From contig NC_069123.1 in assembly GCF_026914265.1 (NCBI RefSeq), forward strand, positions 35,797,178 to 35,861,177: a stretch of 64,000 nucleotides of DNA, given 5' to 3'. This stretch comes from Mya arenaria (taxonomy: Eukaryota; Mollusca; Bivalvia; Myida; Myidae). Made by a program: the position numbers and the translations under genes. The notes under the pieces were generated by a model. That model saw only the letters and a program-made list of their open reading frames with translations. It searched no databases and was not told the DNA's origin. Below, in pieces: positions 12,020-42,800 of this stretch (the stretch's first letter is position 1; every line of letters starts with the position of its first letter).

Positions 12020-12580
12020 CTGTGGGATGTCTTTATTATGCTTCTTCTTTTGCATTTGAAATGTTTAATTTATGAGTAATCCAGTCGTAGATCTGAAATC
12101 AAGTTTTACCATCTGTATGATTAGTCCCAAACATGGGGCTTAGAAGTAAAAATGTCTGATACCATGGTGAAAATGTTCCGTAAAAGAGCACCAGCTAGAC
12201 AGAATTAAACTTGGCTTAGTAACGAAGAATCACTTTCTGAGGTCGACGACTTAAATAACTAATAAGGCATTCTTCGATTTGTAGAGATACTACTCATGAG
12301 GGTTATGTGTAATGGTGCAAAAATATGTAACTGCAGTTGACTTTTGGATACTGCATTTTATCAACATTGCAAAACCTGCACACAAATTTATAGAGTACAT
12401 CTGTTGGTATAGTGTTTCGTTAAAGAGATATTACGGACTAGATGTACGCACGTTGTTGAACAGTTTGTTTTTGATTGACTTGATTTTGATGAACTCATGT
12501 TAACACTTAAACTCAAGGGGCGCCTTCACTTCCAGTGGTCGAAATTGATGGTGACAAGTAACTCGTGATTTATGTCCAAA
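12020..12580. other. Intergenic DNA between genes A and B
   Basis: This covers the 3 prime flank of gene A. The region just downstream, 12,520-12,960, is related to the upstream regions of genes C and D. A possible counterpart of their TATA boxes near 12,594-12,601 reads TGTAAAC in gene B. No further gene is visible. Confidence 0.45.
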
Positions 12581-18900: not shown

Positions 18901-21900
18901 CAACAACTAAGAATCAGATGTCATTCTGTGAGTAAAAGCTGCACTCTCACAGATCGAACGTTTGGTCAACTTTTTATTTTTTGTCTTGGAACGAGCCATT
19001 TTTTGCGAAAATCCATGGAAAACAGTTAAATATCCATTATATGTGTTGTGTGTCTTACGTTCACTAAAAAGATGCTTTCTACAATGAACAACATGCTTTA
19101 ACTTTTCACAGCACTTTGTCGTTACACGTTTATTTTATGTTAATGATATATTTTGCTTTTCTGTTTGAAAGAACGTAGAGTGCAAGTGTTTCCAATCGTC
19201 TGTTACCAATGAAACAGGATGTACTTCTATATGTGGATCAGCAGAAAAATATCCGTGTGGATCTTTTGGAAACAGCTATTTTTCAATATACACTATCGAA
19301 AACGGTTTGTACCACTTTCATTTAGAAAACAACAATTAATGACTTGTGTATTTAGGTAAGCTTAGCTTGCTTGTGTGTGGTTTATCTTTAAGTTCCTGTT
19401 CTTTCTCCATATTCAACAGCTATTTTTCAATATACACTATCGAAAACGGATTGTACATTCTATATTTAGAATAAAATAACTAATTTAATTATGTTAGTTG
19501 CTCGTGTGTGGTTTATCTTTAAGTTCCCGTTTTATTTCCTTATTTATGGCTAGATTAAGTACATCATAAACAGTTTCATCTAGTTGTAACGTACATACTA
19601 GTAGTATTCATTACCATGTTTTATTTCCTTTCAGTTTCGAGTTGTTCTTTTGGTTGTAATATTGTTACCAAGGGATGTTTAGGCGTTCGTTTTGATCGTG
19701 TGAATAAGGTCAGATGGTGGTTGTGCAACAGGCCATTGAACACTTCAATTCTGTGTAGCAAACAACCGTATAATGGTAGGTGAAATCAATCAAAATACAT
19801 CATACTGACTAAACTCTCCGCTCTTGTTAAAGGTTATGTTAAATGTCATTTTAGACATAGCCAATTGTAACAGTGATATTTTATAATTATATTTTAATAG
19901 CCGTTCTCAAATCATGATTATAATTACGTAGTCAATAATAATTATTGTTGCAGTAAATATTCACTATCGTCCGTGTTAAACAAATCTAAATTAAAATAAT
20001 ACATATTATTAATACTGCTAGAGTTAGTGTATATACGAGTGTACGTTGATGTAGTGTCAGAACATATACTCATAAACACAACTCCAATGTAGTCAGTAGG
20101 AAAGACAATAAGCGTTCATAGCCAAGAGTGTTAGATAGATTCATTTCAACCCGAGCGTATGCTTTTTTGCGAAAACGAGGTTAAGCTAGGTTCCGCTGAA
20201 AACCCTGCGCGAGGGTAGTGGCCGTGGTAGATGTTTTTTCTTCCAACTAAGCTAAACAAAATATAGTTAAAAATAGTTTTACATTGGATTTTGGTGCGTT
20301 ACGTTAGTGAAGAAAAGCTTTTTCATACGGATACTTTTCGATCCTTGCCTTTGGGCAAGAACATAGGTATCTGCCATGGCCGCTCGTGTATGATTCAACT
20401 GAATCACTGAATTAAGCAAACAAAAATGCTACACTTGACAAGAACTATGATTTTATGTACTTTTTGATATGCAAAGTAAACCTGAGCAGATACGATATCA
20501 CGTCATGTGTTAAAAAGCAAGCAGTACAATAATCTATGTTTTAAGCGGAGAACGCTTGGAAATTACGATGTCTCATAGGAGGTTGGAGGAATATAAGTAT
20601 ATTCCATGACCGCTCGTGTAAGATAGCTTAATCCCAACCTACCTCAACAATGATCATTCCAACAGTTATTCTTATGCAAAACACCATTAACGAGGGTTGG
20701 TATGAACCTTTCTTACACATGCGGCCATGATAAATGTTTTTTATCTCCCACTTTAGTTAAACAATGTATATTTAAAAAAATCGGTTTTCGCTGGAATTCT
20801 TATCGACGTAGTGGAATCGTATTTACTTTACCCGTGGGCAAGATAAGGATTTCCAGCATGGCCTAATGTTTGGATCTTCTTATCTTGATAGGGAGATATA
20901 TTTAGTCAATGTCGTAAATCTGATAAAAAGCTACCTATCTCAACATGGATCAATCGAACAGTTTGCCAAGTAAAACAAGCACAATATTATTTTTTTTCTA
21001 GAACTTGATGGACGGATTGAGGCGAACGGAAGAAGTAAAACATGGGTAAATACTGGACAGGAGTGTTTCGAAAAAGGTCTGTTTCCAACTCTTTTTCGAC
21101 ATATCCAGTCAACAAACTTTAATGAAACAGGACCGTTCTGGACAAGCGTTATCAGGATGGACTCTCTGCTCCGTGTTGATGGTATAATGCCTTAAGTGAA
21201 GTTTACAAATCAAAGTAAACTGCATACGGGCTATTACCGAATTGTTGTATAATTGTATAAAAAACTACTCAGTAATGCAAGTCATTTTGCCTTACCTTCC
21301 AATCTATTGACAAACTTTGCAATTCATTATATTGACCCGAATTTTCATTTCTTTGGTTGTTGGTTATCCTTAATGGAAGCATTCAATAAATGACAAATGA
21401 AACATGTATAATACTTACAGATAACTTTGGTACTTCAAACCCGAAGCAGTACGCCTATGTAAAAGGTGTTAATGGTGAACTTAAAGTCGAATTTGACGGT
21501 GACTTGACCAAACAAGGGAAAACTCTATACCGGGGTATGTTAGAGTTTTGTTATGAATGTATTATTATATCTAATACGAATTTAATGAACGTAATGAAAG
21601 TTGCATTTAACATCGTGTTTAACTTGTAAGTGTGTATCTTTCACGGATAATCCGTCTGAGTTTTGTCTCGTTAGTGGTTATCCTCGTTTTGTTGTTATCA
21701 GGTACGTTAAAATAGGACCATGATTAACAGCTCATATTCCTTGCAAGAACCTTTGATTGGGTTTTTCAGTGTTATTATAGTTAACCGTATTTTACCAACT
21801 AAATTCATGTACCGAATATAAATAAATCAAGAACAAATAGTAAGAAAACTACAGAGACAAGCCTGCATTTAACAGTACCATTAATGACATGATCCTATTT

Positions 21901-24900
21901 TAAAAACACAAATCCCTACAATGCGAATGAATTTTCTTACGTATCATCAGTTAATCAATTGTCCCTTTAAAATGTGGTAATTTATAAAGTATCTTTTATG
22001 TGATTGACATAGTATCATTTATTTAACAATGGAACACTGGGTTCTACAGGTTGTGGAGTTACAACAACAATGCAAACTACTGCGTCAAAATATACTACCA
22101 CACAGGCATCCGGAGACCAAACTACACATGTATATAGAACTCATACAACAGCAACAGGAGGATGGACGCCATATGACGTGGCAATAGCAGGCGTTTTAAC
22201 ATCCCCGTTGAGTTCAGCTTCATCTGAGAAAGGTATGTTGAGTTAAAAGTTATTTATTTTACAACGATTGTAATATAGACATGGTGTACATGCCATTTAT
22301 TTAAAACGCCATATGTTAACATAATTAACGGACGCGCATTGTTGCCAATTCACGACAAATCGACGCAAGTATATCGAAATCGACTTTGTATCTTGAAATT
22401 TAGTCAAAAGAAGAGATTTTTCATTGGGTATTCTAAGACGCGTTTTTATGGCAATTGAAATACATCCTTAAATAAAGCGACAATATATTGTGTTGAAAAA
22501 TATATTGTATATATTAATAAAGCTTTAAATACTGAAGCGTTATATGTACTTGTTTATGTTTGTTTAACTGATAGAACAAATGTTAATTCAAAATTTATAA
22601 ATTCAGCTGAAGGGAGTACGTTATCTTTAATGTCATTGGCTTTCAAAAGTTGTTTTACTACATTTTTGCCCTCATAAGGGTGTAAAAAATATAAATAAAG
22701 TCAAATGCAAATATGTAAAAAATTCAATCAGACATAATAATGGAACTTTAAGAGAAAAAAGATATAGTGGGTATTTTGCGTTATTATCAGTTTTACATAA
22801 TTGCACCGGGGTTAAAATGGCACATGATGGCAAATCGTGTTAATATATAAACGCAGCGTTGATAAGTAATTTTAATTTGGGAGTCAACAAGTCTTGATCT
22901 CGAGTAAGTATCTAAAGTTCAAATTTCGCTATTGTTAGTCGAAATTTCTCGTTAAATAGTCGATCCTCAAAGACAAAGTAATTAAGTCGGTATTTTGCCA
23001 TAGTCAGTCGAAAATTCGAGGTAATAAGTCGAAAAATCGAGTTAGTATAAAGAGTTAGTCGAAATTTTCCAGATACTAAATCGAAATTCTAAATACTTAG
23101 TCACGATTTATACATTCCTGTGTCTCATTATAATTCTTAAATAGGCACTAACGCGCTTTCGTAGAATCGAAGATACGTATAGCCGGACAATATCGATTTT
23201 CTTTTTTCTTCTAATTGCTTTTGCCCCAGGTATACGATGCGGAAAAGGCTAAAGCGAGATGAATACATATTAGGTGTACATATGCGCAACTTCCTAGTAT
23301 ATAAATCGTAAATGCGTGTCAAATATGTGACGTTTTGCTATTTCGTATTGTTTTAATCAAAGAATTGCTCCTAATGAGCTTTTGTGTACACATATTTAAG
23401 GCTATTGCGGTCATCTTGTGGTTGACTTTGTAGCATATGTCTGTTTGGGAAATAATAACAACTAAATACAGAATCAATAAACATCCTGGTTACACGACGA
23501 AAACTTACGTTGTATGAGCTTCATGATACAACGTGTTATTCAATAGTTGCATTTACGATATACGTTTAAGATGCATATAAAAGAGAAGAGGTCTCATTAT
23601 TGAATTATGTTTCTAAACGTTTAAAGGAATACACTGGTCAAACAAGAGATTTTTATATAAGTTAATATATGTATTATGTTATTTTGTTATCGATAGATAC
23701 ATACGAACATTCATTTATTAGTGTTTGAATTAATCTAGTAGTACATCAGCCTCCAATCACAGTGATAACTGCTGGTGTTTCATATGAAGTTCTCCTTTGC
23801 TCAATTGATATTCCTTATAGAGTTTGTATTTAGGACTGAGTATATAAACAAATCAGACGAAACAATTGGGAATTAAAAGGGGGTATTTCCTTCTACATGA
23901 CAATTCCCTAGCCGATGAAAGTACGGTGGTGATGTCCTGACTGGACAAAAAAGATAATGTAACGATTATTACATGAATAAGCAAATACAAACTAAAACTG
24001 TGATACTTTGAAGTATCATTTTTCAGTGCCTTAAAAGTATATAAATGGAAGACTAATCTAAACAGGTGAAACAACAAGGCGAGTGTATCAATTTTTTGGA
24101 TTATGATATTTTATATATAAATACATTGTTCGATGGACTTTTTTTTAATTTTTAAACCTAGCGTACTTTTTTATTTTTTTTCAATAAAAAGCGTATGAGG
24201 ACCTTTCACCAAATAATATAGAAATTTGAGGTTGCATTTTTGTTAAACCGTAAAAGAAATTATGAATATATACTATTTATATAGCACATGCTATTATGCC
24301 TGCGAATCAATTCAAAGTTATAAGAGTTAAGAGTTTCTTGATAGTTCAATGCAAACACATAATGTATGAATCCTCAATTTTGATAAAAAGTTACCAATTC
24401 ATTGAACTTGGTTTGCTTATATTTTAGCTTCCAGACACATTCCTATCGCGGGGATATCTGCTGGTGTATCAATTATTCTTCTGATAGTAATTGCCGTTGT
24501 TATTCTTATCTGCAAAAGGTGAGGTTTGATTACTTGATAATAATTGTTCTTGATATAAGAGTTTCTTGCATGGCGAAGCCGGGTTGCAGCGTGCCCGGTG
24601 TCCCATAAGACGTAGTCGAAGGACATTATAAACACGATGAACACCAAATATGGACTTAAATTTCACAATTAAATTTGATAAAATTGAAATCGTAGCAAGA
24701 AGAACAACGCTCTGTTATAAAATTAAAAGCGTTCCAAATTCAAGCAAATATAAACTTACCGTTGCGTTTTTTTTCTGATATCAACGCTGAATAAATATCG
24801 CCACCCTACCAGTCTACACTTGTTATCGATAACTGATATACTTTAGTCTTGACGGTTTAAGCGTTTGCCTCACTTTACTTCTTCAATAACTATTCTGTTT

Positions 24901-25365
24901 CGATAGTTTGTTATTATATAGTTAATACTGCATCCCTGCAATAGTTGTTTAAAGGTATACCGTAAGGTTTTTTGTATACCATATACCATTTTGACAACAG
25001 CACGTACCGTTTTCATATACAGTAGACAATTCATACAATGAACATAGCTTTAAAAATATCAAATAAAGTGCAATCACCCATGAAAATGGTATTTCAGTAT
25101 TTTCTACTTAATACATTCACTCCCACTTATATTCAATTTGTATCTCTTATGTTTTAGAAACAGGCTATGCAGTCTTTCTGAAGGACGAAAATCATATACA
25201 CAAAGAGAAAGGGGTGATGGTGAACATATATACTGCAATAAAACTTTAACAAATAATGAAGTCAACCTGTATCAATGCCTACAACACGACCAGACAAGTC
25301 AGGAGTATATGGAACTCAGCACGGTGCAAAAAAACCTTCCAACTGTTTCTACAGCAGAATATTGA
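12963..25365 (+). CDS. Gene B: WSC-domain transmembrane receptor with ITAM tail (471 aa)
   Basis: Ten exons, all in compatible phase: 12,963-13,032; 17,057-17,245; 17,544-17,650; 19,172-19,304; 19,635-19,775; 21,002-21,181; 21,421-21,534; 22,050-22,232; 24,428-24,518; 25,158-25,365. They total 1,416 nt including the stop. Order: signal peptide (about 1-23); module ending GAWIGLYK (24-86); WSC domain with eight cysteines (about 84-166; GCN, DC, GC, EC, KC, GC, MC or IC, PCG pattern); Cys/Trp module (VRWWLC); lectin-like module ending FWTSVIRM; Cys module; Thr-rich stalk; transmembrane helix; tail with YQCL-x8-YMEL (Tyr 441 and 453). Likely a plasma-membrane receptor with an intrinsic activating motif; the ligand is unknown, and WSC and lectin-like modules hint at glycans. 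Odd points: a LINE fills intron 1; the exon 1 donor is GTAACA; the candidate TATA is altered; one cysteine has moved across the exon 7/8 boundary; intron 8 contains a relic transmembrane exon. Confidence 0.75.
13914..14183 (+). pseudogene. LINE N-terminal frame fragment (89 codons)
   Basis: It contains YTRAELYSIG and RGTRGG, a pattern I associate with the leader of CR1/L2-like open frames just before the endonuclease. The adjoining endonuclease frame overlaps it in another phase, so a frameshift separates the two. It is part of the defective element in intron 1 of gene B and not a host gene. Confidence 0.5.
14158..15444 (+). CDS. LINE apurinic-type endonuclease region
   Basis: An open frame of 428 codons. 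Motifs of the AP-like endonuclease of non-LTR elements follow in order: CSVNTRSVKNK, DICAITETWLG (catalytic Glu), RRGGGVAIIYK, VIYRPPPSRENG, VGDLNFHLD (Asp/Asn catalytic pair), HTLDVVIT and SRDHFAVTF (terminal SDH/RDH His). The linker that follows, with PSCPWYSEQL and a basic helix, normally leads into the reverse transcriptase but here stops at a TAG. The frame is intact, but the element around it is not. Confidence 0.8.
   Translation: MLGLNIGTKSIKICEHYGGNIIRIQPDNCTQTAGKKNIRVCSVNTRSVKNKTLSICDFILTKDFDICAITETWLGSSEDKSCTSELLPEGYKTKHVPRRGRRGGGVAIIYKASIHINIIASSKDHDFSQVEFMDCNVVIGKHSIRLAVIYRPPPSRENGLNANTFLEQEWPLFLSKYATEGNSSVIVGDLNFHLDQPTNSDTKKFNSNLDAFGMHQHVAEPTHVAGHTLDVVITRDNNNAISNVEVIVPGLSDSNGRISRDHFAVTFHVEASKPPPIRKAVSYRKLRSIDINSFRDDIRKTDFFNARGISSNIDDFIEEYSNELTLILDKHAPLTTKTITLRPSCPWYSEQLHDAKHQKRKLERKWRESKLSIDHDIYRSQCAVVNRMLKQARVDFYTSKIESCGSDQKSLHRITKTLLGNTNEVILP
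15566..16702 (+). pseudogene. LINE reverse transcriptase, N-terminally deleted
   Basis: The frame starts at the palm motif LDLSAAFDTIDHETLL, followed by VPQGSVLGP and the catalytic YADDSQLYLSF (15,841 on). Thumb sequence with VRNLGAYLDSNM and SRIDYCNALLYG follows. The frame closes at 16,481-16,483 (TGA), after which homologous C-terminal sequence (ALPSDIRDCNTLQSFKKAL) continues in the same phase. The fingers region expected upstream (motifs 0-2) is missing. Confidence 0.8.
17782..17991 (-). pseudogene. LINE relic: RT-type zinc-binding fragment in intron 3 of gene B
   Basis: The minus-strand frame reads SPIRIEQRKCFSCGFFED followed by EYHFVLEC. This is the C-x2-C, then H, C pattern of the zinc-binding segment at the C-terminus of many molluscan LINE reverse transcriptases. 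Genes C and D carry more diverged copies at the same intron position, so the insertion predates the array's later duplications. Confidence 0.6.
18937..19040. repeat. MITE family 2, left-end fragment in intron 3 of gene B
   Basis: The segment with AAAGCTGCACTCTCACAG, then GGAACGAGCCA and ATCCATGGAAAACAGT, matches the first hundred bases of the complete copy at 54,188-54,534. The rest is missing. Confidence 0.6.
19268..19540 (+). repeat. Local tandem duplication of the end of exon 4 and start of intron 4, gene B
   Basis: The segment from ACAGCTATTTTTCAATATAC (19,270 on) through TTTATCTTTAAGTTCC is repeated from about 19,414 to 19,530. The second copy has GATTGT in place of the GTTTGT donor, so it is not a usable alternative exon end. 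C and D have a single copy. Confidence 0.75.
20126..20735. repeat. Foldback element cluster in intron 5 of gene B
   Basis: Two degenerate inverted-repeat structures lie at about 20,126-20,245 and 20,605-20,735. Each has a TAAGATAG- or GATAGATTCAT-type arm and a complementary arm ending near GCGGCCATG or GGCCGTGGTAG. Palindrome-like CTTGCCTTTGGGCAAG (20,341-20,356) lies between them. Homologous structures occupy intron 5 of genes C and D. Confidence 0.5.
23730..23800 (+). pseudogene. Relic of a D-type transmembrane exon inside intron 8 of gene B
   Basis: GTAGTACATCAGCCTCCAAT and the following bases through GGTGTTTCAT match the start of the transmembrane exon of gene D (48,817 on), including the CAG-like acceptor region, here CTAG. 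The match stops within the hydrophobic core, and sequence like intron 8 of gene A begins by about 23,800-23,820. The second half and donor are absent, so it cannot be used as an exon. Confidence 0.75.
25158..25365 (+). CDS. Gene B cytoplasmic tail exon with ITAM
   Basis: The acceptor TTTTAG precedes phase-2 sequence encoding NRLCSLSEGRKSYTQRER, a basic juxtamembrane segment, then NLYQCL-QHDQTSQE-YMEL. This is YxxL with an eight-residue spacer and a second YxxL, within the ITAM consensus (YxxL/I, 6-8, YxxL/I). The protein ends STAEY. Another tyrosine (HIYCN) lies upstream. In known ITAM proteins phosphorylated pairs recruit tandem-SH2 kinases of the Syk family; that role here is inference. Confidence 0.8.
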
Positions 25366-27290
25366 CCGTGGGACTAGCCTATACGATTTTTTATGCTACT
25401 GATTTTGCAGTTGAAATGGTTATATCATGAGTAATTTAGTTTGAACTCAAACTTTAACCAACTGTATGATTATTGCCAAACATGGGGCTTAGAAGTAAAT
25501 ATATCTGATACCAAGCAGGAAATATTCCGTCACAGAGGACCAGTAAGACCGAACGAAACTTAGTTTTGTAACGAATAACCACTTAATGAGGTCGACGAGT
25601 TAAATAACTAACATGGCGCTTTATTTTTAAATACGGCTCCATTCTTTTATACGTAATTAGCATTGCTCTTAAAGATATGCATGTATAATAACAACAATCA
25701 AAACATTCACGTCGCCTTAAAAATTGCGCACTAATTAAGCTAATCGTTTATAGTTCTATCTACAATTATGGAACTAATGTTTGAGTGTTTTACAAAACAA
25801 AATACATCGAACGGGGTCACCATATGTTTTGAAGAGGTCAGGAAAAGAACTTTTACACAGACTGTTTACGAATGATTAGGGATTTATGCTAACGTATTGC
25901 TTTAAAGTGCAAGAATCTTATTTTATTTAACTTCAGTGTACTGTAAATACAAGGTTAAGCAAGGATGGTCTTTCCTATTGGTATCATTCAACGTTCAAGC
26001 CAACTTGATAAAATGGAATTTTGCACGTCTGGTGTAATTGTAATGTCAAAGTTTTTTTTTCAAGTCTTATGATTGATGTTGGTCTACAAAAGAGTTATCG
26101 TAACAGTGCGAAACTCAATGACATATTCTGACATGTGCATGGTTCATTTAGTATGTCTGAATATTGCATTTAATAAAACCAAAAGAACCCGCATAAACAA
26201 GTCGCGTGTATTGGAGCACAACACTACATGTAGCAACATCAAGAAACGGTCCAAATGGACTGCCAATAAAGATATATTATGTTTATTATGCATAAAGGGA
26301 AATTACGGATAAAAGTAATTTTGTAATTTCATGTAATTATTTCAATGCACTCTTACCAATGTTTATTTAAAAGGTATTTATATTGATGACTTAATAATTA
26401 ATAGAAATTATCAGCATGTATCAACTGATGTAAATTAATGAAAGCACTTGTTACAGCAAATAGTGGAAGAGACAAGTTAATTAATAACACAGTGTTCTAC
26501 TTTATTATATGTTGGTGTTATTAGCATAAACTATATACATTTGCATTCTGGTTGCAGATGTCAAATAGAAGAATATGAAGACCAGAAGAAAACAACATTT
26601 AAAAAAAAGAAATATCCTGGAATAGTCCATATACTTACGGAACATGTTATCCATGGTTGAAAACCATTAATATTATTCCGATACACAAAGGAATGGTGGA
26701 AGAGAATAATTATCTCCACAATTTTATACCCGTCACTTTATTTCCTTGCTTATGCAAAATAATTAAAAGTATTCTACTTAAAAGAATAAACAAACATGTA
26801 AAGATTTACAGTGTACCATTGCCGTCACCATAACAACGAGGATCCCAGAAAGGCTTTAATTGTATTACTTCCGTGTTTAACCTGCAGAAAAGAGTTTTAT
26901 TCCACTATAACGAATTTAACTCCTTTTTTGTATTGTTACACAATTTTGAATATCCGGCAAACACTTGTGTATAATAATAAATTCTCCACTTTAGCAACAG
27001 AGGCTGATTGCCACGTTTTGGGTACCGTATTTGTATCGATATAAGCATCGTATATGAGCTAAGGTGGATTTTTTTTAATCGCTTGAGACAAAGGAGTTGA
27101 ACGATCGGCTACAAACATAAGCCCAATGCAAAGGTAAAGTGAAAATGAAAAAGGTATCTGGCATTTCAGGGATATCTGTAAATCAGACCAGAAACCCTTA
27201 GTCAAATAAATTATTTTGCAAAGGCAGCTTCTAAATTGAGCTGATACCTTCGAACTCGTGTTTTATGACCAAAATTGCTGCCTTTTATGT
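25366..27290. other. Intergenic DNA between genes B and C, with LINE relic
   Basis: No host gene is visible. A 79-codon frame at 26,073-26,312 recurs at 37,938-38,177 only because the block is duplicated; it has no recognisable domain. LINE debris lies at about 26,600-27,000. Confidence 0.5.
26650..26990 (+). pseudogene. LINE relic: reverse transcriptase fingers region
   Basis: The plus-strand reading NIIPIHKG, then FIPVTLFPCLCKIIKSILL and KRINKH, then after a stop QRGSQKGFNCITSVFNLQK, follows the order of the fingers motifs of non-LTR reverse transcriptases (NYRPVTLLPxLxKIxExxLxxRL, then QxGFxKGxSCIT). It has stops and is a fossil. A near-identical copy lies at about 38,815-39,130 in duplication unit 2. 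Confidence 0.6.
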
Positions 27291-27291
27291 G

Positions 27292-27298
27292 TATAAAA
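27292..27298 (+). promoter_or_regulatory. Candidate TATA box of gene C
   Basis: TATAAAA lies about 350 bases upstream of the gene C start codon; gene D has TATATAA at the matching place (39,444-39,450). The possible gene B counterpart near 12,594 reads TGTAAAC. Inference from position only. Confidence 0.35.
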
Positions 27299-27648
27299 CG
27301 GTTAAGTTCGGTAATATAAGCCTCGTATTTCAAGGTTTGAAAATCTAGAGTAATGATGTGTTATGAACATGTTTTTCTTCAAATAAAACGTATAAAGATG
27401 ATAGCAGTTAAAACGATGTTTAAACTGTTTATTTAGATCAACTTATATACCAGATACCCATAAAGGTGTATACAATATTTTCCTTAATGTAGTGTTTGGC
27501 TTTTATTACTGTTTATGATACCCGAGCAATTCACTTCCTTATTCTTCAGCTTAAGAAATTGAATCCATGTTCACCTGTTTTATTCACAACCTAGTCTTAC
27601 AAGGAAGATATCCTTATTTATAAGTATTTTTTAAAAACCATATAAAGG

Positions 27649-30600
27649 ATGAATGTTACTGTTTTTCATAATGTTATATTTGGTTTGCTTGTGATACCAA
27701 TATTGTCGGTTGCTACAAGTAAGTGAACTTATATTATTTTTTTATAAATATTACATTTTGATTTTGCATGTTATACGGTTATAAGAAAAACATTAACCTC
27801 TTGGTTTCTACTACAATACTTTTAAAATAAATGGTTTGCTGCGACACAGTCACTTTTGGTGTAAGATCATACTAGCAAACTTTGTCCTTTTTTTTTGGTG
27901 GTTCACATATTTACGTGCAAACTCCCACAAACACAGTTTATATCTATCGCTTTACCTGTTTTAAATTAATAACAATTGACTACTGATTTACTGAAAGAAA
28001 TGTACTTGAAAACTTCATAAATACTGCTTTCTCATTTGCCAAATGAACATGTTGACCACAAACGACAGTATGTACAATGACGCGCTATAATAGTTATACA
28101 GGCTAAGCCTTAAAATGCTTAAAACGTCGCTACATTTGTAAGTTCAGTTTTAAACAGTTCTTTTCAAACCATTATAGCTGAATATTGTGAAGCTCGTTGA
28201 AATAATTCTTGAAGTATTTAATTGTTTTTTTTATTCTGATTTTCTATGACATTCCATCCTTTAAAGCTTACTATGAAGCATTAAAGGAAAAATATCTTTA
28301 AGAGCTTTTAATACATTCGAAATTAACAACTGCATTGCAATATGATTTGTAAATTCAAAATGTTACTCAGCTGTAATGCACTTTTTTACAGGTAACGCTT
28401 ATTTTTTATCAAACGATTCAACAATTTGGGGGAAAATCAACTGCACACTGGCCGTTCCAGATCTTAATTATACAGATGAAGGTATTTATGTCGTGAACGA
28501 TGATATGTCTGTATTATCCTTGCCATCGGAGGGTGCATGGATAGGACTATACAAAGCTCGATTGAGTTATTCATATGTTGGTAAGTGTGTATGTGATATA
28601 TGTTGCTTTTTCAATGCGATTGATTTCTAATTTTACTAGCTTGAGCTGATCGATGTTACTTATTTAAAATGCATGTCATGAATATGAGTTTCTGATTATG
28701 TCGTTAGGTCACTGGTTTTGAACAAATAAAACTATTCTACGTTTCTAAAGATTCATTTAAACCGTTGCATGTCGGTTTTTATTGTTTTACTCTTAAGGTT
28801 GCAATACACTGAATGACACCGATGTGTTGCTGGTAAGAAATTTGAGCGACTGTAGATGGCAAAGTGGATGTGACATGTTTGGAGTACGAAAAACGGACAC
28901 TGATGTAATTATTACTAATAAGTAATAGTAAATAAACAAATAGGTAAATAAACAACCTAGATGCACTATACCTGATTTAAATCAGTCAACCGAGCAGGAA
29001 GAACACACAATTAACCCACAGTTTACATAAAACTGTATCATTTATTACGTGTTGTGATAATGAAGTGATAAATGGAAATTCACAAAACTTTGAGAATTTC
29101 ATAACAACTCAGCCGCGATGATCCGACAGAAAATAAACCCCATGTGAAGATAAACATACCTTTAACGTGTTTAAAGTTGTTTCAATGCAAATATCCTACG
29201 AATTAAACAAACAATATTGAATGTTCAAAACCTGTCGAGATATCATTATATATAAGTTTATTTCCACCAAAAACATCACACATATATACTAATGAAGAGG
29301 ACTATGCTAGCCCCTGATCATCTAAACATTTGCTTGGCGGTCTATAAGTTTTATAACTAGTTGAGATTCTTAATAATTACATAAAATGTAGCAAATGTTT
29401 GAACTCCTTCCAATTTTGCATATTTGTTCCACGTCTTAGGAGTATAAATATTAACATATCAGAATTTAAACTGCATTCTAACACGAAATGAAACTTGTCT
29501 TCTAAGAGGCTGCATGAGAAATATTTTCTCTGTTCAATGCGAATAGGACTGGGTCCCTCCATTCTGCATCTCTCAATTTCAAGTCTATATGCAGATACAC
29601 GTAACCACGATCAACTAAATCTAATAATGTAAAAATGTCGTTAACATATTAAGTAGCTATAAAAGGAAGCATAAGTAAGGTTAAGATTGCCATCAAACTA
29701 AAAAATCCAAACGTTACGTATACAAATAACATTTGATTTATTTGAGGGTTAGTAATTTTGACTTATGGGCTCGTCCCTGTTGCTTTTATTGTATTATTAT
29801 TTGTTGTATTATTGTATCTTATTATTTGGACATTTCATGCCGCCTCGTATCATTCCTGGGAGTATATAGTACGTAGCCAGAGGGTTGGGGTTCAGCATTC
29901 AAGTGAAATATGTTCAATCTCGTGTCGTAACACAATTGTGGATTGAAAACTTTTAAAGGGTTTAACAAAATACTATACCATTGGCTAATATTGAACTCAA
30001 TCCATCCGTCAAAATGCAGGACAGTCACACTATCTTAAAGTAATCATTTTCTCATGCTTCAGACTCTTCGAAGTATTTCTACATTCTCTAACAATGTAGC
30101 AATGTTCAATAATTAACATTGAATTAAATACAATACAATGGCATTAACACTTTCAGATTTCATACACGTGTCAAACTAAAAATCATCAATTTTGTTCAAA
30201 CATTCAAAAATGCTCTATTGCGGCAGTCACGTTTTACAAGTCGATACACTGAAAAAAGTGACTCCATTCGTACAATGGGCAGGTCCTTAAAACGTTTAAA
30301 TTTTCGGGGGCTGATACAGAGGGATGATATTATTTTACAGGGATAATATGAAGGGCATAATTCAATGCTTGAAAAAGGCATTTAAATCACTTCTTGCTAA
30401 ATCGCTCTTTTTTAGAAAGTAGTTGATAGGTAATCATATAAGTATCTTCCATGGCCGAGAGTTTAAGATAGATTCATCCCGAACCCGAGCGTAGGGTGTT
30501 TTTCGGAAACGAGGCTTACCGAGTTTCCGCAAAACACCCTGCGCGAGGGTCGGGATGAACCTATCTTACACGAGTGGCTATGGTAGATGCTTTTTCTCCC

Positions 30601-33600
30601 ACCTCAGTTAAACAACATTAAGTAAAAATGTGTTTTTTTGCTGGAACTCTTTTGTGCTTTGTGAAAATAATTGCGCATGGATATGCGATAATTCGTGAAT
30701 GTCATGGATATGCGCGCAGTGATTCAGTTGATGTTAATAGTCAAATCGGTCTAAATAGTTCTAAGGAGAGTGAACCATTATTTCTTGAAAGGTGCATGAA
30801 AACTGTTTTATGGTGACATTTGAATCGAGAAATAATAAATTAGCGTTCTAAATATTGCCACAAGAAAATGTTTCCATGATGCTTCAGACGAACAAGGGAG
30901 GTAATTAAAATGTGGTGACCATTAAAAAGAAGTTCCATACGGGCATTTTATCTTTGCCCGTGGGCAAGATAGCACTTGGTTTACTTCGAAGCACTGTGAT
31001 AGATGCGCATCTCAACAACTTATGATCAAATGTCATTCTCTGAGTTACCAATAAAACACTTTTGAAATAAAACTTTAAATGTAGTTTTAAACACATTATA
31101 TGTGTACGATGTCTAATGTTTAATTGATCGTGACATGTTTATTTCGCTTTTTTGCTACATTTTGCTTTACTGTTTGACAGAAAGTTGAGTGCAAGTGTTT
31201 GAAATCGTTTGTTACCAAGGAAAAAGGATGTACTTCCATGTGCGGATCAGAAGATAAATATCCGTGTGGACCTATTGGAAACAGCTATTTTTCAATATAC
31301 ACTATCGAAAACGGTTTGTACAACCTATATTTAGAAAAAATAACTTATTACTTATTTAGTTAGGTAAGTTGCTCGTGTGTGGTTTATCTTTAAGTTCCCG
31401 TTCTCCTTATTTATGGCTAGTTTAAGTATATCATCGACCGATTCATCTAGCTGTAACGTACATACTAGTAGTATTCATTATCATGTTTTATTTCCTTTCA
31501 GTTTCGAGTTGTTCTCTTGGTTGTGATGATGTTACTAACGGATGTTTAGGCGTTCGTTTTGATAATGTGAAGAAGGTCAGATGGTGGTTGTGCAGCAGGT
31601 CATGGAACACTTCAATTTTGTGTAGCAAACAACCGTATAATGGTAGGTGAAAAATAAATCAAAATACATCATACTGACTAAACTGTCCGCCCTTGTAAAA
31701 GGTTATGTTAAATGTCATTTTAGACATAGCCAATTGTAACAGTATTTTTTTATTATTATATTTCTGTAACCGTTCTCATGTCATGATTATAATTACATAG
31801 TCAATAATAATTATTGTTGCAGTAAATATTCACAATCGTCCGTGTTAAACAAATCTAAATTAAAATAGTAAATATAATTAGCGTGCGTAAGTTGATGTAG
31901 TGTCAGAACTTATACCCATTAACACAACTCAAATGAAGTCAGTAGGAAAAACAATAAGCATTCATAGCCAAGAGTGTGAGATAGATTCATCTCAACCCGA
32001 GCGTATGTTGTTGTTTTTTGCAAAAACGAGGTTAAGCTAGGTTCCGCAGAAAACCCTGCGCGAGAGTAGTGGCCGTGGTAGATGTTTTTTATCCCAACTC
32101 AGTTAAACAAAATAAAGTTAAAAAATAGTTTTACATTGGATTTTTGGTGCGTTACGTTAGTGAAGAAAAGCTCTTTCATTCGGATACTATTCGATTCTTT
32201 CCCATGGGCAAAAACATAATTATCTTCCATGGCCGCTCGTGTATGATTCCACTGAATCACTGAAATAAGCGAAGAAAAATGCTGCACTTGACAAGAACTG
32301 TGATTTATGTACTTTTTGATATGCAAAGTAATCCTGAGCAGATACGTAATCACGTAAGTTTTAAAAAGCAAGCAGTACACTTATCTATATTTTTAGCGGA
32401 GAACACTTGAAAAGTACGATGTCTTATAGGATGTAGGAGGAATATAAGTATCCTCCATGATAGCTATATCCCAACCTAACTCAACAATGATAATTCCAAC
32501 AGTTATTATTATTATTCTTATGCAAAACACCCTTAATGAGGGTTGGTATAAACCTTTCTTACACATGCGGCCATGCTAAATGCTTTTTATCTCCCACTTC
32601 AGTTAAACAATACATATATTAACAAAATATGTTTTCGCTTGAATTCTTGTGTACGTAGTGGAAAAAATCGTATATACTTATGTATCTATGCCCGTGGGCA
32701 AGAAAAGGATTTACAGCATGGATAAATATTTGGATCTTACTGGAATGGGAGAAATATTAAGACAATGTCGCAAATCCGTTAAACAGCTACCTACTTCAAC
32801 AGTGATCATTCCAACAGTTTGACAAGTAAAACAAGCAAAATATATATTTTGTTCTAGAAACTGATGGAGAGATTGAGGCATTTCCGAGAAAAAGAAATAA
32901 AACATGGGCAAACACTGGACAGAAGTGTCTCGAAAATGGTCTGTTTCCAACACCATTTCGACATATCCAGTCAATAAACTTAAATGAAACAAGAGGGTTC
33001 TGGACAAGCGTTATCAGGATGGAGTCTCTGCTCAGTGTTCATGGTATAATGCTTTTAGTTAGGTTTACAAATAAAATTAAACTGCATACGGGTCAACACC
33101 GCATTGTTGTATAATTGTTAACCTGTACAGTTTACAAATCTACTATGTAATGCAAGTCAATTGTCTTGTTCTTCTTCTCATTTACAAACATTGCAATTCA
33201 ACATATGGACCCGAATATTGGAAGCATTCAATAGATGACATTTGAAGCACCTGTGCCAAACAATGCCAAGTCAATGAAACAAAAATACTTACAGACAACT
33301 TTGCTACTTCAAATCCGATGCAGTACGCCTATGTTAAATGTGTTGGGGGTGAACTTAAAGTCGGATTTGACGGTGACTTTACCAAACAAAGGACAGCTCT
33401 ATGCCGGGGTATGTTAGAGTTATATTATGAATGTACTAATAGAGCGACATCCAGTAGGCTGCTGCGCTTTAATAAAATTATCAAGAAAAAAGTAAAACTG
33501 AAGAAATAGTGATATATGAATGGAATTGCAAACATTTAAAGACAAAACTTCTGTTAACAGAAAGTAATGAAAGCTGCATTTAACATCTTGTTTAACGAGG

Positions 33601-36600
33601 AACTCTTATTTTACTGTTTCAATGATAAGTTTTAGATTTTCTTTCTCATGAGGGTTTATTCTGGTTTTGTTGTAGAAACCTACATTAAAAACAGGCCCCT
33701 GACTAACAGAACGCATTCCTGGCAATCATCTTTCTTTGGGTTATCAGTGTTATCAGTGTTTTACCGTTATTTTAAAACTTAATACATGTTCAATACGACA
33801 ATAAATCAATAATCAAAGGTATGATAACTACATAGACAAGCCTGTATTTAACAGAACGCTTTTTCGTCTGAGATCTTCAAATGATCCAATTTCAAAAAAA
33901 CAAATCCCTACAAATGCGTAAGGATTTTCTGACGTATCATCGTTCAATCAAGCATCTCGTTAAAATGTGTTAGTTGATAGAGTATCAGTATCTTAAATTT
34001 GATTGTCATATTATCATTTATTTAACAATGGAACACTGGGTTTTACAGGTGGTGGAGTTACAACAACAATGCAAACTACTACGTCCAAATATACTTCTAC
34101 AAAGGAATCCGAAGACCAAACTACACAAGGTCATGTATATACAACTCATACATCAACGTCAGAAAGATCGACGCCATATCACGAGACAAAAACAAGAGAT
34201 TTAACATCCCCTACGAGCTCTAGTTTAGCTGAGAAAGGTGTGTTAAGTTTAAATTTATTTACTTATTTTACAGCAATTGTGATATAACATGGTGTACATA
34301 CCATTTAGTTAAAACGGCATATGTGAACATAATTAACGGACTCGCATTGAAGTTAAGTCTACTTTTCAACTGTCTAGAAATTCAGACCTTAGCGAAAGAT
34401 CGACTTAAATCATTTGGAAGGAGAGAAAAGCATATACTAGTCGCTTTTATTTTTAATAATGGTTTTCTTTATTTGTTCCCAGTTTTAGTACAATGATGCT
34501 TTTTATTATGAAACTTTATGATCACACAGTTTTAAACCTTTTAAGGCAGACTGTGTGTTAAGCTTTTGGTTTCTAACGATTACTGCATCGTATCTTTGAA
34601 AAGTATTTGAATTAGGTGCTCTGAATTGTTTCCCTCCGTCTGCAGATAGAGTTGGGATCTCTAATCATTGAAGTACTTGGGGTTTACCTTTTCGTTTTTT
34701 ATTATTATTTGTTTTATTGATAAGTTTCCTCAAGTTAATGCATACTTTGATAAGATTTATCTTTTGCGTTTTATCTTTATTAAGAATTGATGGGATAAGA
34801 GTGAGGTTTGTGCACATAAACTGGTTTAAACCCCCAGTAAATTAAAATTTTACTGACCGTTCCAAGGCGGTACCTAACAATTCTTGATAAACATACCAAT
34901 TATTTATATATATATATATATATAGTATTTATGTTCTGTGTTGTTTGTAGAGTTGTGTGCTGTTCTATCTTTCTTGTTTGTGAATTTGTGTTCTATGTCT
35001 TTGGCGTTGCCCATTGCCACTAAACCGGGTTTATGTTTAAACTCTTTGCTACTGAGCATGTTTCTGTAGGTTTTTGCATATATATTAGTTCAATGGAAGT
35101 TTTGGCTAACATGCGGTGTTTTTATGACAGAATTTGTCCCTGGGGTATTTCTAAAACGCGTGTTTTTGGCAATTGAGAAAATACTTACCTGATTAAAACA
35201 CCAATAGTTTGCGTCAAAAATATGTTGTATATATGTAGAGGAATAAATACTGACGTGTGAAATGTACTTGTTTATTTTTGCCGAACAGATAAATTCAGAT
35301 TTGATAGGTTCAGCTGAAGGGAGTGAATAGCTTTAAAGTTATTGCCTTTTGAAAGTTTGGGGCTTCAAATTCATTCTCATAGGGGTGATAAAAGATATAA
35401 TTGTCAAATTTCAATATAAAACACTTCAATTAGATATAAAAATGATATTGTAATAATCAAAGCCGTAGTGGGTAGTTTGCGTTATAAATATTTCTACATA
35501 TTTGTCCCGGGGGGGACGGCACATGATGACAAAGATTGTTTAAAAACGCACTGTCGATTTTTTATTTGAACGTCAAATTTCCGAGTGAGTAACTTATGTT
35601 AATGTAGTTCAAATTTTGCTATTGCTTGTCAAAATATTGCAGACTGGACAAAAAAGATAATGTAACGATTATTACATGAATAAGCAAATACCAACTAAAA
35701 CTGTGATACTTTGAAGTATCATTTTTCAGTGCCTTAAAGGTATATAAATGGAAGACTAATCTTAACAGGTGAAACAACAAGGCGAGTGTATCAATTTTTT
35801 GGATTATGATATTTTATATATAAATACATTGTTCGATGGACTTTTTTTAATTTTTAAACCTAGCGTATTTTTTTTTTTTTTTTTTTTCAATAAAAAGCGT
35901 ATGAGGACCTTTCACCAAATAATATAAAAATTTGAGGTTGCATTGTTGTTAAACCGTAAAAGAAATTATGAATATATACTATTTATATAGCACATGCTAT
36001 TATGCCTGCAAATCAACTCAAAGTAATAAGAGTTAAGAGTTTCTTGATAGTTCAATGCAAACACATAATGTATGAATCCTCAATTTTGATAAAAAGTTAC
36101 CAATTCATTGAACTTGGTTTGCTTATATTTTAGCTTCAAGACACATTCCTATTTCGGGGATATCTGCTGGTGTATCAATTATTCTTCTGACAGTAATTGC
36201 CGTTGTTATTCTTATCTGGAAAAGGTGAGGCTTGATTACTTGATAATAATTGTTTATGATATAAGAGTTTTTTAGAGGTAATTGCATGGCGAAGCCGGGT
36301 TGCAGCGTGCCCGATGTCCCGTAAGACGTAGTCGAAGGACATTATGAACACGAGGGCCAACGGTTCGGCTCCTCCATGTTGAATCCTCTTTAATACATAT
36401 GTGGGGTTTTTTTTCTTGTTTTGTTAGTTGACTATATAGTTTTATAAAGTTTGTCATCACTCAAGTTGTACTCGCATGTCGAGGAATAAACTTAATCACA
36501 AAAAAGGTTGTTAGAGTAATCCAAGTCGCAAAAATATGGACTTAAACTCCACAATTAAATTTGATAAAATTGAAATCGTAGCAAGAAGAACAACGCTCTG

Positions 36601-37242
36601 TTATAAAATGAAAAGCGTTCCAAATTCAAGCAAATACAAACTTACCGTTGCGTTTTGGGGTTTTTTCTATATCAACGCTGAATAAATATCGCCACCGTAC
36701 CTGTCTACACTTGTTATCGATAACTGATATACTTCAGTCTTGACGGTTTAAGCGTTTGCCTCCCTTTACTTCTTCAATAACTATTCGGTTTCGATAGTTT
36801 GTGATTATATAGTTAATACTACATCCCTGCAATAGTTGTTTAAAGGTATACCGTAACGTTTTTTGTATACCATATACTATTTTGACAATAGCACGTACCG
36901 TTTTCATATACAGTAGACAATTCATACAATGAACTTAGCTTTAAAAATATCAAATAAAGTGCAATCACCCATACAAAATGGTATTTCAGTATTTTCTACT
37001 TAATACATTCACTCCCACTTATATTCTATATGTATCTCTTATGTTTAAGAAACAGGCTATGCAGTCTTTCTGAAGGACGAAAATCATCTGCACAAAGAGA
37101 AAGGGGGGATGGTGAACATATATCCTGCAATAAAACTTTGACAAATAAAGAAGTAAACCTGTATCAATGCCTACAAAACGACCAGAAAAGTCAGGAGTAT
37201 ATGGAACTCAGCCTTCCAACTGTTTCTACAGCAGAATATTGA
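27649..37242 (+). CDS. Gene C: chimeric WSC-domain receptor, D-type ectodomain with ITAM tail (470 aa)
   Basis: Exons: 27,649-27,718; 28,392-28,580; 28,798-28,904; 31,181-31,313; 31,502-31,642; 32,858-33,043; 33,295-33,408; 34,049-34,237; 36,134-36,224; 37,050-37,242. They total 1,413 nt including the stop, all phases agreeing. Domains: signal peptide (about 1-23, MNVTVFHN start), WIGLYK module (24-86), WSC with eight cysteines (84-166), Cys/Trp module (167-213), lectin-like module (214-275), Cys module (276-313), Thr/Ser stalk (314-376), transmembrane helix (about 383-405), tail with YQCL-x8-YMEL (Tyr 445 and 457) ending AEY. N-glycosylation sequons include NDS, NCT, NTS, NKT and NET. Exons 1-8 nearly equal gene D, while exons 9-10 nearly equal gene B; the junction is at 35,640/35,641 in intron 8. 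An in-frame 15-base deletion shortens the C-terminus relative to B. Likely an activating receptor; ligand unknown. Confidence 0.8.
29377..29562 (-). pseudogene. LINE relic: RT-type zinc-binding fragment in intron 3 of gene C
   Basis: Minus-strand MEGPSPIRIEQRKYFSCSLL then HFVLEC is homologous to the gene B relic at 17,782-17,991, with the first cysteine replaced by Tyr. Upstream on the minus strand, LEIERC-like sequence fits the usual run into this zinc segment. Confidence 0.55.
30451..30582. repeat. Foldback element with 60-base arms, intron 3 of gene C
   Basis: The left arm (30,451-30,510) and right arm (30,523-30,582) are imperfect inverted copies around a 12-base loop; GTTTCCG and ACACCCT pair with their complements and CGGGATGA pairs with TCATCCCG. 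GC content is well above the surroundings. The gene D counterpart is at 42,601-42,732. Confidence 0.8.
31963..32580. repeat. Foldback elements in intron 5 of gene C
   Basis: Two further degenerate foldbacks, at about 31,963-32,084 and 32,455-32,580, resemble the 30,451 element: CAACCCGAGCG and GCGCGAG arms, and ATCCCAACC pairing with GGGTTGGTAT. TGCCCGTGGGCA-type palindromes follow (32,689-32,700). Gene B and gene D carry the same arrangement. Confidence 0.5.
34795..35075. repeat. Dispersed repeat family 3 in intron 8 of gene C
   Basis: A segment with GTGCACATAAACTGGTTTAAAC, CTGACCGTTCCAAGG, a TA run (34,906-34,925) and GCCCATTGCCACTAAACC recurs in gene D (47,028-47,290). It also recurs, inverted and more diverged, within the SRCR gene at about 58,245-58,505. 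No coding capacity is evident. Confidence 0.7.
34906..34925. repeat. (TA)n microsatellite
   Basis: Simple TA run within dispersed repeat 3; the duplicated copy at 47,135-47,152 is a few units shorter. Confidence 0.9.
35636..35650 (+). other. Junction of the 12 kb tandem duplication, intron 8 of gene C
   Basis: The left side (AAAATATTGC) continues differently in gene D at 47,868. The right side (GACTGGACAAAAAAGATAAT) is preceded by different sequence in gene B at 23,939. One A separates the two at 35,641, with no long homology, so the join looks like end joining rather than recombination between long repeats. Confidence 0.85.
37050..37242 (+). CDS. Gene C cytoplasmic tail exon with ITAM
   Basis: The acceptor is TTTAAG where gene B has TTTTAG. 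The exon encodes the basic NRLCSLSEGRKSSAQRER segment, then NLYQCL-QNDQKSQE-YMEL, then SLPTVSTAEY. Compared with gene B the spacer residues differ (QNDQK against QHDQT), HIYCN has become HISCN, and five residues after YMEL are lost in frame. The two ITAM tyrosines and leucines are unchanged. Confidence 0.8.
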
Positions 37243-39801: not shown

Positions 39802-42800
39802 ATGAATGTTACTGTTTTTCATAATGTTATATTTGGTTTGCTTGTGATACCAATATTGTTGGTTGCTTCAAGTAAGTGAACTTATATTATTTTTAATAAA
39901 TATTACATTTTGATTTTGCATGTTATGCGGTTATAAGAAAAACATTAACCTCTTGGTTTCTACTACTATACTTTTAAAATAAATGGTTTGATGCGACACA
40001 GTCACTTTTGGTGTAAGATCATACTAGCAAACTTTGTCCTTTTTTTGGTGGTTCACATATTTACGTGCAAACCCCCACAAACACAGTTTATATTTATCGC
40101 TTTACCTGTTTTAAATTAATAACAATTGACTACTGATTTACTGAAAGAAATGTACTTGAAAACTTCATAAATACTGCTTTCTCATTTGCCAAATGAACAT
40201 GTTGACCACAAACGACAGTATGTACAATGACGCGCTATAATAGTTATACAGGCTAAGCCTTAAAATGCTTAAAACGTCGCTACATTTGTAAGTTAAGTTT
40301 TAAACAGTTCTTTTCAAACCATTATAGCTGAATATTGTGAATCTCGTTGAAATAATTCTTGAAGTATTTAATTGTTTGTTTTTATTCTGATTTTCTATGA
40401 CATTCCATCCTTTAAAGCTTACTATGAAGCATTAAAGGAAAAATATCTTTAAGAGCTTTTAATACATTCGAAATTAACAACTGCATTGCAATATGATTTG
40501 TAAATTCAAAATGTTACTCTGTTGTAATGCACTTTTTTACAGGTAACGCTTATTTTTTATCAAACGATTCAACAATTTGGGGGGAAATCAACTGCACACT
40601 GGCCGTTCCAGATCTTAATTTTACAGATGAAGGTATTTATGTCGTGAACGATGATGTATCTGTATTATCCTTGCCATCGGAGGGTGCATGGATAGGACTA
40701 TACAAAGCTCGATTGAGTTATTCATATGTTGGTAAGTGTGTATGTGATATATGTTGCTTTTTCAATGCGATTGATTTCTAATTTTACTAGCTTGAGCTGA
40801 TCGATGTTACTTATTTGAAATGCATGTCATGAATATGAGTTTCTGATTTTGTCGTTAGGTCACTGGTTTTGAACAAATAAAACTATGCTACGTTTCTAAA
40901 GATTCATTTAAGCCGTTGCATGTCTGTTTTATTGTTTTACTCTTAAGGTTGCAATACACTGAATGACACCGATGTGTTGCTGGTAAGAAATTTGAGCGAC
41001 TGTAGATGGCAAAGTGGATGTGACATGTTTGGAGTACGAAAAACGGACACTGATGTAATTATTACTAATAAGTAATAGTAAATAAACAAATAGGTAAATA
41101 AACAACCTAGATGCACTATACCTGATTTAAATCAGTCAACCGAGCAGGAAGAACACACAGTTAACCCACAGTTTACATAAAACTGTATCATTTATTACGT
41201 GTTGTGATAATGAAGTGATAAATGGAAATTCACAAAACTTTGAGAATTTCATAACAACTCAGCCGCGATGATCCGACAGAAAATAAACCCAATGTGAAGA
41301 TAAACATACATTTAACGTGTTTAAAGTTGTTTCAATGCAAATATCCTACGAATTAAACAAACAATATTGAATGTTCAAAACCTGTCGAGATATCATTATA
41401 TATAAGTTTATTTCCACCAAAAACATCACACATATATACTAATGAAGAGGACTATGCTAGCCCCTGATCATCTAAACATTTGCTTGGCGGTCTATAAGTT
41501 TTATAACTAGTTGAGATTCTTAATCATTCCATAAAATGTAGCAAATGTTTGAACTCCTTCCAATTTTGCATATTTGTTCCACGTCTTAGGAGTATAAATA
41601 TTAACACATCAGAATTTAAACTGCATTCTAACACGAAATGAAAATTGTCTTCTAAGAGGCTGCATGAGAAATATTTTCTCTGTTCAATGCGAATAGGACT
41701 GGGTCCCTCCAATCTGCAACTCTCAATTTCAAGTCTATATGCAGATACACGTAACCACGATCAACTAAATCTAATAATGTAAAAATGCCGTTATCATATT
41801 AAGTAGCTATAAAAGGAAGCTTAAGTAAGGTTAAGATTGCCATCAAACTAAAAAATCCAAACGTTACGTATACAAATAACATTTGATTTATTTGAGGGTT
41901 AGTAATTTTGACTTATGGGCTCGTCCCTGTTGCTTTTATTGTATTATTATTTGTTGTATTATTGTATCTTATTATTTGGACATTTCATGCCGCCTCGTAT
42001 CATTCCTGGGAGTATATAGTGCGTAGCCAGAGGGTTGGGGTTCAGCATTCAAGTGAAATATGTTCAATCTCGTGTCGTAACACAATTGTGGATTAAAACC
42101 TTTTAAAGGGTTTAACAAAATACTATACCATTGGCTAATATTGAACTCAATCCATCCGTCAAAATGCAGGACAGTCACACTATCTTAAAGTAATCATTTT
42201 CTCATGCTTCAGACTCTTCGAAGTATTTCTACATTCTCTAACAATGTAGCAATGTTCAATAATGAACATTGAATTAAATACAATACAATGGCATTAACAC
42301 TTTCAGATTGCATACACGTGTCAAACTAAAAATCATCAATTTTGTTCAAACATTCAAAAATGCTCTATTGCGGCAGTCACGTTTTACAAGTCGATACACT
42401 GAAAAAAGTGACTCCATTCGTACAATGGGCAGGTCCTTAAAACGTTTAAATTTTCGGGGGCTGATACAGAGGGATGATATTATTTTACAGGGATAATATG
42501 CAGGGCATAATTTAATGCTTGAAAAAGGCATTTAAATCACTTCTTGCTAAATCGCTCTTTTTTAGAAAGTAGTTGATAGGTAATCATATAAGTATCTTCC
42601 ATGGCCGAGAGTTTAAGATAGACTCATCCCGAACCCGAGCGTAGGGTGTTTTTCGGAAACGAGGCTTACCGAGTTTCCGCAAAACACCCTGCGCGAGGGT
42701 CGGGATGAACCTATCTTACATGAGTGGCTATGGTAGATGCTTTTTCTCCCACCTCAGTTAAACAACATTAAGTAAAAATGTGTTTTTTTGCTGGAACTCT

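Follow-up and report, generated by a model that had tools for sequence, protein, structure and literature searches.

How might an animal come to carry receptors that share one recognition surface and send two different signals from it? The question is raised by a 64,000-nucleotide stretch of the genome of the clam Mya arenaria (contig C2, positions 35797178-35861177, in a genome of 1.216 Gb; hereafter the window, whose own coordinates are used throughout), in which four genes, A to D, form a tandem array of one Mya receptor family on the + strand. Members of this family have a signal peptide, a cysteine-rich ectodomain, a Thr/Ser stalk, a single transmembrane (TM) helix and a cytoplasmic tail. 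The tails of B and C hold an immunoreceptor tyrosine-based activation motif (ITAM), whereas D joins an ectodomain almost identical to that of C to a tail of another kind. On balance we lean, with some reserve, towards reading these genes as paired receptors that, like the mammalian CEACAMs, gained an ITAM through the swapping of tails.

Two intact receptors with an ITAM tail

An earlier note on this DNA had described a tandem array of type I receptors with an intrinsic ITAM tail, and genes B and C bear this out: both lie intact in the window, both proteins are annotated by NCBI, and the paired motif YQCL-x8-YMEL occurs in each tail where it had been placed.

12963-25365, + strand: gene B (NCBI LOC128214585, protein P0002), 471 residues, matched piece by piece
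12963 onwards, + strand: gene B signal exon, with ectodomain exons within 17057-21534 and the stalk at 22050-22232
24428-24518, + strand: gene B TM exon, type 1
25158-25365, + strand: gene B ITAM tail exon
25270-25317, + strand: gene B ITAM, YQCL-QHDQTSQE-YMEL
27649-37242, + strand: gene C (NCBI LOC128223439), 470 residues, its spliced translation identical to database protein P0001
27649-27718 (signal), 28392-28580, 28798-28904, 31181-31313, 31502-31642, + strand: gene C exons 1-5
32858-33043, 33295-33408, 34049-34237 (Thr/Ser stalk), 36134-36224 (TM, type 1), 37050-37242 (ITAM tail), + strand: gene C exons 6-10
37162-37209, + strand: gene C ITAM, YQCL-QNDQKSQE-YMEL

In both genes the TM exon runs into the tail exon in frame. 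The cytoplasmic tail encoded by this cassette, 68 residues long but 63 in C, contains one canonical ITAM, and the pattern YxxL/I-x(6-8)-YxxL/I is located in the cytoplasmic tail of intact membrane proteins. The clam ITAM is real and probably working, in a family so far seen in Mya alone.

Gene D and a probably older tail

Downstream of C lies a fourth gene, which after splicing gives a 602-residue open reading frame with a single stop and GT-AG splice sites.

39802-50054, + strand: gene D
39802-39871, 40543-40731, 40948-41054, 43426-43558, 43747-43887, + strand: gene D exons 1-5
45092-45277, 45529-45642, 46282-46470, 48817-48910 (TM, type 2), 49469-50054 (tail, type 2), + strand: gene D exons 6-10
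49469-50054, + strand: D-type tail of 194 residues, 11 of them tyrosine, with neither an ITAM nor a strict immunoreceptor tyrosine-based inhibition motif (ITIM)

The eight exons shared by C and D differ at 8 of 1129 nucleotides, and the proteins at 6 of their 376 N-terminal residues; as assembled, the two genes are a pair with near-identical ectodomains and different cytoplasmic tails. The array of the earlier note stood for A, B and C, but it had overlooked both gene D and the hybrid origin of C described below, so that the context is, on the sequence, richer than that note allowed: the same ectodomain occurs with what appear to be two unrelated tails.

The tyrosines of the D tail are set in the motifs ENYDHMN, NDYDSM, EETYNHLN, DNVYGF, DEYDTT and DEYDEIN. 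Units that may resemble a hemi-ITAM (hemITAM), a single YxxL preceded by acidic residues, are found in D (SEETYNHLN, FDEYDEIN) and in the paralogue P0006 (LDEYDHLN, HEDTYNHLN). The D tail is homologous to the tail of LOC128234856 on contig C5 (tblastn E 8e-17) and to the annotated tail of LOC128233717 on the same contig (4e-7), and none of 2000 shuffles reached the score of its alignment with either annotated tail (p 0.0005). Because these two C5 paralogues carry the same tail type, we infer that the D-type tail is the family's older tail and that it predates the ITAM tail. The D tail also matches a stretch directly downstream of the NCBI end of LOC128233717 (5e-14); this second D-type tail stretch (L039 3932-4216) is in another frame and holds intact ETYNHLN, ENVYGL and DYDKINKIW, and the annotated LOC128233717 tail may be truncated or frame-shifted.

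A proposed exchange of the tail

Comparison of the introns around the TM exons locates a boundary in gene C and a remnant in gene B.

35640-35642, + strand: recombination junction of gene C, D-like on its left and B-like on its right, within the intron that precedes the TM exon
23738-23803, + strand: in gene B, remains of a type 2 (D-type) TM exon, now decayed; the working type 1 TM exon follows 0.6 kb downstream

To the left of the junction, C 35000-35640 aligns by blastn with D 47228-47868 at 98.8% identity, and to its right C 35642-36300 aligns with B 23939-24584 at 94.8%; upstream of the junction, C and B align over 2.2 kb at about 83% identity. The simplest reading of C would be that unequal crossing-over, or conversion, brought an ectodomain of the D type together with an ITAM cassette of the B type. 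The relic in B matches the type 2 TM exon by tblastn (68% over 22 residues, E 9e-5), its decay being read from the alignment, and B 23577-23796 and D 48652-48874 share 79% DNA identity. Since B retains this decayed type 2 TM exon, it too seems to have once had the old arrangement, and the near-identical outer parts and different tails of C and D suggest that the cluster makes new receptors by tail swapping.

A tail so far found at this locus only

A genome search with the ITAM tail, in which all 7 of 7 candidates were scored, returned five matches, namely A, B, C and two at E 6.5 and 8.8. With the whole protein as query there were 92 matches (90 of 257 candidates scored), and tail matches fell in A, B and C only. 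A search of 5.77 billion proteins, which requires shared 5-residue words and similar protein length, yielded 7 candidates, and the tail region matched none but the B and C proteins. Being restricted to A, B and C in these searches, the ITAM tail looks young; distant relatives may have been missed.

The ectodomain is more widely spread. A family profile built from five database proteins found nine proteins at E<=0.01, all from Mya, and gene D was not among the matches of that search, at this threshold, as a separate protein. Other ectodomain relatives lie on C5 (9.03-9.42 Mb), C11 (40.16-40.78 Mb), C7, C9, C15 and C16, clustered on some contigs; among those off-window relatives the tails were read for the two C5 genes.

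Gene A, a decayed copy

The earlier note had called the motif of gene A out of frame, and the exon frames and the NCBI model agree.

4707-12022, + strand: gene A (NCBI LOC128214574), decayed
10695-10785, + strand: gene A type 1 TM exon, ISAGVSIILLIVIAVVVLIRKR
11924-11971, + strand: gene A ITAM codons, still legible, YQCL-QNDKTSHD-YMEL

Exon 2 carries a frameshift from a four-base insertion, and a deletion of 19 bases has removed the acceptor of exon 3. Unless splicing takes a weak AG further downstream, the tail exon lies out of frame with the TM exon by one base; on our reading, the ITAM frame requires the tail exon to start 5 bases later. The NCBI model (P0009) reads a signal peptide, stalk, TM helix and then the out-of-frame tail, giving a short protein that lacks the ectodomain, and another database model, the partial MAR_028996, reads the ITAM frame. 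The stalk exon that P0009 takes, 9518-9616, had no match above 60% identity in the other copies in the query made.

Conservation of the motif

Replacement changes among A, B and C affect 15 of the 50 codons of the distal tail. None of the eight codons of the two YxxL units is among them, against five of the eight spacer codons (Fisher p 0.026); given the overall rate, zero of eight in the YxxL units has p 0.044, and the four anchor positions taken alone give p 0.23. Tyrosine positions outside the ITAM have changed in three of three cases and those inside it in none of two. For A and B (A read in the ITAM frame) the nonsynonymous and synonymous divergences are dN 0.112 and dS 0.261 over 50 codons, and for B and C they are 0.038 and 0.122 over 45 codons. 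The codon-by-codon check of anchors against spacer that the earlier note had called for gives a modest difference for whole YxxL units and no clear one for the anchors alone. Its suggestion of selection agrees with the constancy of the YxxL units and of the spacing of eight beside a drifting spacer, but the statistics are weak and, as set out below, another stretch of the tail is as conserved. The codon data agree modestly with selection on the motif and fall short of proof.

A Syk-family kinase gene

An approximate sequence of the human SYK tandem SH2 region, used as query, gave 19 genome matches at E<=1. Four of these, on the minus strand of contig C13 (58934021-58943008), are collinear with the N-terminal SH2 domain, the interdomain and the C-terminal SH2 domain (E 2e-7 to 6e-4), and downstream on the same strand lie kinase exons with a glycine loop, HRDLAARN, DFG and KWYAPE. 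We take this locus as a Syk-family tandem-SH2 kinase gene, predicted from unspliced exons. Among the other matches are three on C3, one of them the best-scoring overall (8.7e-8); since none of the three extends beyond the C-terminal SH2 part, they look to be SH2 exons from other proteins.

The ectodomain

The WSC domain and lectin-like ectodomain proposed earlier for these receptors found no support in the searches. No Pfam match to WSC (PF01822) was seen at E<=10 in any of four family proteins, and none of the genome's 36 WSC hits falls inside the window. A WSC profile made from seven of the genome's own WSC exons separated the family from shuffled decoys in no clear way: of five family proteins the highest-scoring, P0002, was outscored by 22 of 1000 decoys, and the remaining four were not among the top matches listed. 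A distant relation to WSC is still possible; to the eye, and as an impression only, the cysteine pattern resembles that of the domain. Neither Pfam sequence profiles nor sequence searches of solved structures gave a lectin domain; the solved-structure searches, made with sequence profiles, returned no credible match of any kind for the family ectodomain, and no NCBIfam model reached its cut-off in three family proteins.

Other features of the window

Intron 1 of gene B contains a non-long-terminal-repeat retrotransposon (13902-16500) with endonuclease-like and reverse-transcriptase-like reading frames, its family judged by eye. Beyond gene D, 54183-54539 aligns with the reverse complement of itself at 75% over 371 columns, matches a second site at 893-1213 as well, and is possibly a palindromic mobile element.

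Discussion

The observations allow us to propose a model for the origin and working of these receptors. The older tail of the family would be the long, tyrosine-rich one seen in D and the two C5 paralogues, and a compact ITAM cassette would have taken the place of the TM and tail exons in A, B and C. Clustering by ligand would let a Src-family kinase phosphorylate both ITAM tyrosines, and the phosphorylated ITAM would then be bound by the tandem SH2 domains of the clam Syk, activating the cell. If D recognises the ligand of C, or one very like it, and gives a different signal, C and D would act as paired receptors, and the form with the ITAM would equip an existing binding surface for activation, as CEACAM3 does beside CEACAM1. 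We infer Syk recruitment and paired signalling from what was seen here, that is, the exons, their frames, the motif, the hybrid nature of C as assembled and the Syk-family gene. In its full form the model describes a locus of paired receptors in a mollusc: unequal recombination within the intron that precedes the TM exon would attach an ITAM cassette, young and specific to the lineage, to ectodomains whose original tails signal in another way, giving a convergent invertebrate counterpart of CEACAM3/CEACAM1 coupled to the clam Syk. In this form we put it forward tentatively, as a reading somewhat more likely to be wrong than right.

Gene C itself could be an assembly artefact in which a falsely duplicated haplotype was fused so as to join the D ectodomain to the B tail, leaving one intact ITAM gene (B) and one old-tail gene (D). 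C and D differ at only 0 to 8 sites per 300 bases over about 9 kb, a level that is possibly allelic in a bivalve, and the hybrid junction falls exactly at the edge of the duplicated block. The divergence is uneven, however, with 7 to 22 differences per 300 bases in the cassette part and 0 to 2 in 30676-35494. Aligning the two blocks also opens gaps of about 95, 175 and 290 columns, and the difference in tails would remain from B and D alone; we consider an artefact improbable. It is also conceivable that the ITAM tail was derived gradually from the N-terminal part of a D-type tail and was never gained as a new exon. The TM exons of types 1 and 2 can be aligned, both tails open with a short basic and cysteine-containing stretch, and YMELDTKVK in the tail of P0003 resembles YMELSTVQK; against this, the B tail gave no local alignment to any of three D-type tails above shuffles (p 0.36, 0.56 and 0.84), and gradual derivation seems to us unlikely, with a chance that should still be reckoned with.

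Two further explanations concern the motif. That it turned up by chance in a short tail of recent origin, and serves no Syk function, fits with the ITAM tail being found at this locus only and with the out-of-frame state of copy A. The motif expression is moreover matched 25 times in stop-free stretches of the six frames of the window (tandem copies being counted repeatedly), compared with 12.8 +/- 3.7 in 60 first-order Markov simulations, and occurs in 201 of 20000 shuffled B tails (1.0%) and 55 of 20000 shuffled C tails (0.28%). An A-B omega of about 0.43 in the distal tail argues otherwise, as does the fact that every one of the three copies has kept the two tyrosines and the two leucines whereas tyrosines at three further positions have varied, and we give the chance explanation little credence. 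Alternatively, the two YxxL units may be endocytic YxxPhi sorting signals, or independent docking sites for single SH2 domains, that do not co-operate as an ITAM. YQCL and YMEL each fit YxxPhi, the old-type tail of P0003 has a lone YMEL (TPVYMELD), and in D-type tails YxHL(N) units occur singly and far apart; what would speak for co-operation is the constant spacing of eight in A, B and C despite changes in the spacer, and the presence of a tandem-SH2 Syk-family kinase gene. Separate action of the two units is, on the whole, doubtful.

Returning to paired receptors made by tail swapping, a number of observations weigh against them. The motif expression alone is weak evidence, being frequent by chance. 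Within the tail the C-terminal LPTVSTAE is as conserved as the YxxL units (0 of 8 changed), B and C have diverged by only about 5% in the tail region, which weighs against conservation specific to the motif, and the conservation sample consists of three copies from one species, one of them decayed, with p values of 0.03-0.23. On the side of the partner, the strict ITIM pattern [ILVS]xYxx[LIV] is absent from the D tail, the sole match in D lying in the ectodomain, and among the C5 paralogue tails that of P0006 has a single ITIM-like match, INYDII, close to its end, and that of P0003 none; the partner may therefore not be inhibitory. Assembly error could account for the C/D duplication. Three of the four C13 SH2 matches cross one stop codon in the genome search, which is probably alignment past the exon edges, as shorter alignments have no stops. 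Finally, no known domain was recognised in the ectodomain: Pfam found none at its cut-off in four of four family database proteins or in the partial gene models, and structures predicted for the C protein (from 5 and 6 sequences) had a mean predicted local distance difference test score (pLDDT) of 32.3 and 30.5, too poor for a fold search.

Should the model be correct, an animal that has neither antibodies nor T cells would have arrived independently at the paired-immune-receptor arrangement of vertebrates, with one recognition surface and two signalling outputs, renewed by tail swapping. The locus offers a test case outside the vertebrates, in which the pair (C and D) and the junction are defined and there is a candidate for the kinase gene, and it is relevant to the birth of activating receptors from those of a different kind. 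Mya arenaria suffers from a transmissible blood-cell cancer, and its self/non-self receptors are of practical interest for that reason; we draw no link here between this locus and the cancer.

Comparison with known systems

Among invertebrates, Drosophila Draper is a receptor with an intrinsic ITAM-like tail coupled to the Syk-family kinase Shark; it differs from the clam receptors in being an EGF-repeat engulfment receptor. In the literature searched, mostly open, on ITAM receptors in molluscs and other invertebrates and on immunoreceptors in Mya arenaria, no paper dealt with these Mya genes by its title or the opening of its abstract.

The nearest molluscan cases come from oysters. According to the available part of the review PMC13027682, CgCLec-TM1 and CgCLec-HTM are hemITAM C-type lectin receptors that associate with Syk and lead to ERK phosphorylation. 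Like the clam proteins they are bivalve transmembrane receptors with YxxL motifs, but each has a single YxxL and a C-type lectin carbohydrate-recognition domain, whereas the clam receptors have a two-YxxL ITAM and no recognised lectin domain. The description of the clam receptors as an undescribed family hence holds for this gene family within our searches and not for Syk-coupled bivalve receptors at large, the oyster proteins having already been reported (PMC13027682). Oyster CgIgIT2 is credited with a classic ITAM in section 15 of a review (PMC11999971) and would be a further bivalve receptor with a reported ITAM, unlike the clam's in having five immunoglobulin (Ig) domains; in the portion of the review available, the motif call is contradictory because CgIgIT2 and IgIT signalling are described as inhibitory in two of the titles that the review cites. 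A fuller oyster precedent may be contained in a paper on ancient B-cell-receptor (BCR)-like signaling, known by title only (reference 95 of PMC11999971).

Exchange of signalling motifs has also been described in allorecognition. As far as the accessible text of the review PMC12065747 goes, Botryllus fester co-receptors carry ITIM and hemITAM motifs that splicing swaps, and Hydractinia Alr-locus proteins have ITAM/ITIM; the Botryllus receptors have Ig/sushi ectodomains and serve allorecognition, whereas in the clam the swap would run through gene recombination.

In the CEACAM paired receptors, by the account in the consulted section of PMC2832619, cytoplasmic exons bearing an ITIM were replaced by ITAM exons, and the likeness of the ectodomains is kept by gene conversion and recombination. 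As in the clam, CEACAM1 and CEACAM3 join very similar ectodomain exons to different cytoplasmic exons (PMC2832619). CEACAMs have an Ig-fold ectodomain, an ITIM-bearing partner and known ligands, whereas the clam receptors have an unclassified ectodomain and, in D, a tail that lacks a strict ITIM. The two arrangements would be of independent origin, and CEACAM is the closest evolutionary parallel to the clam locus.

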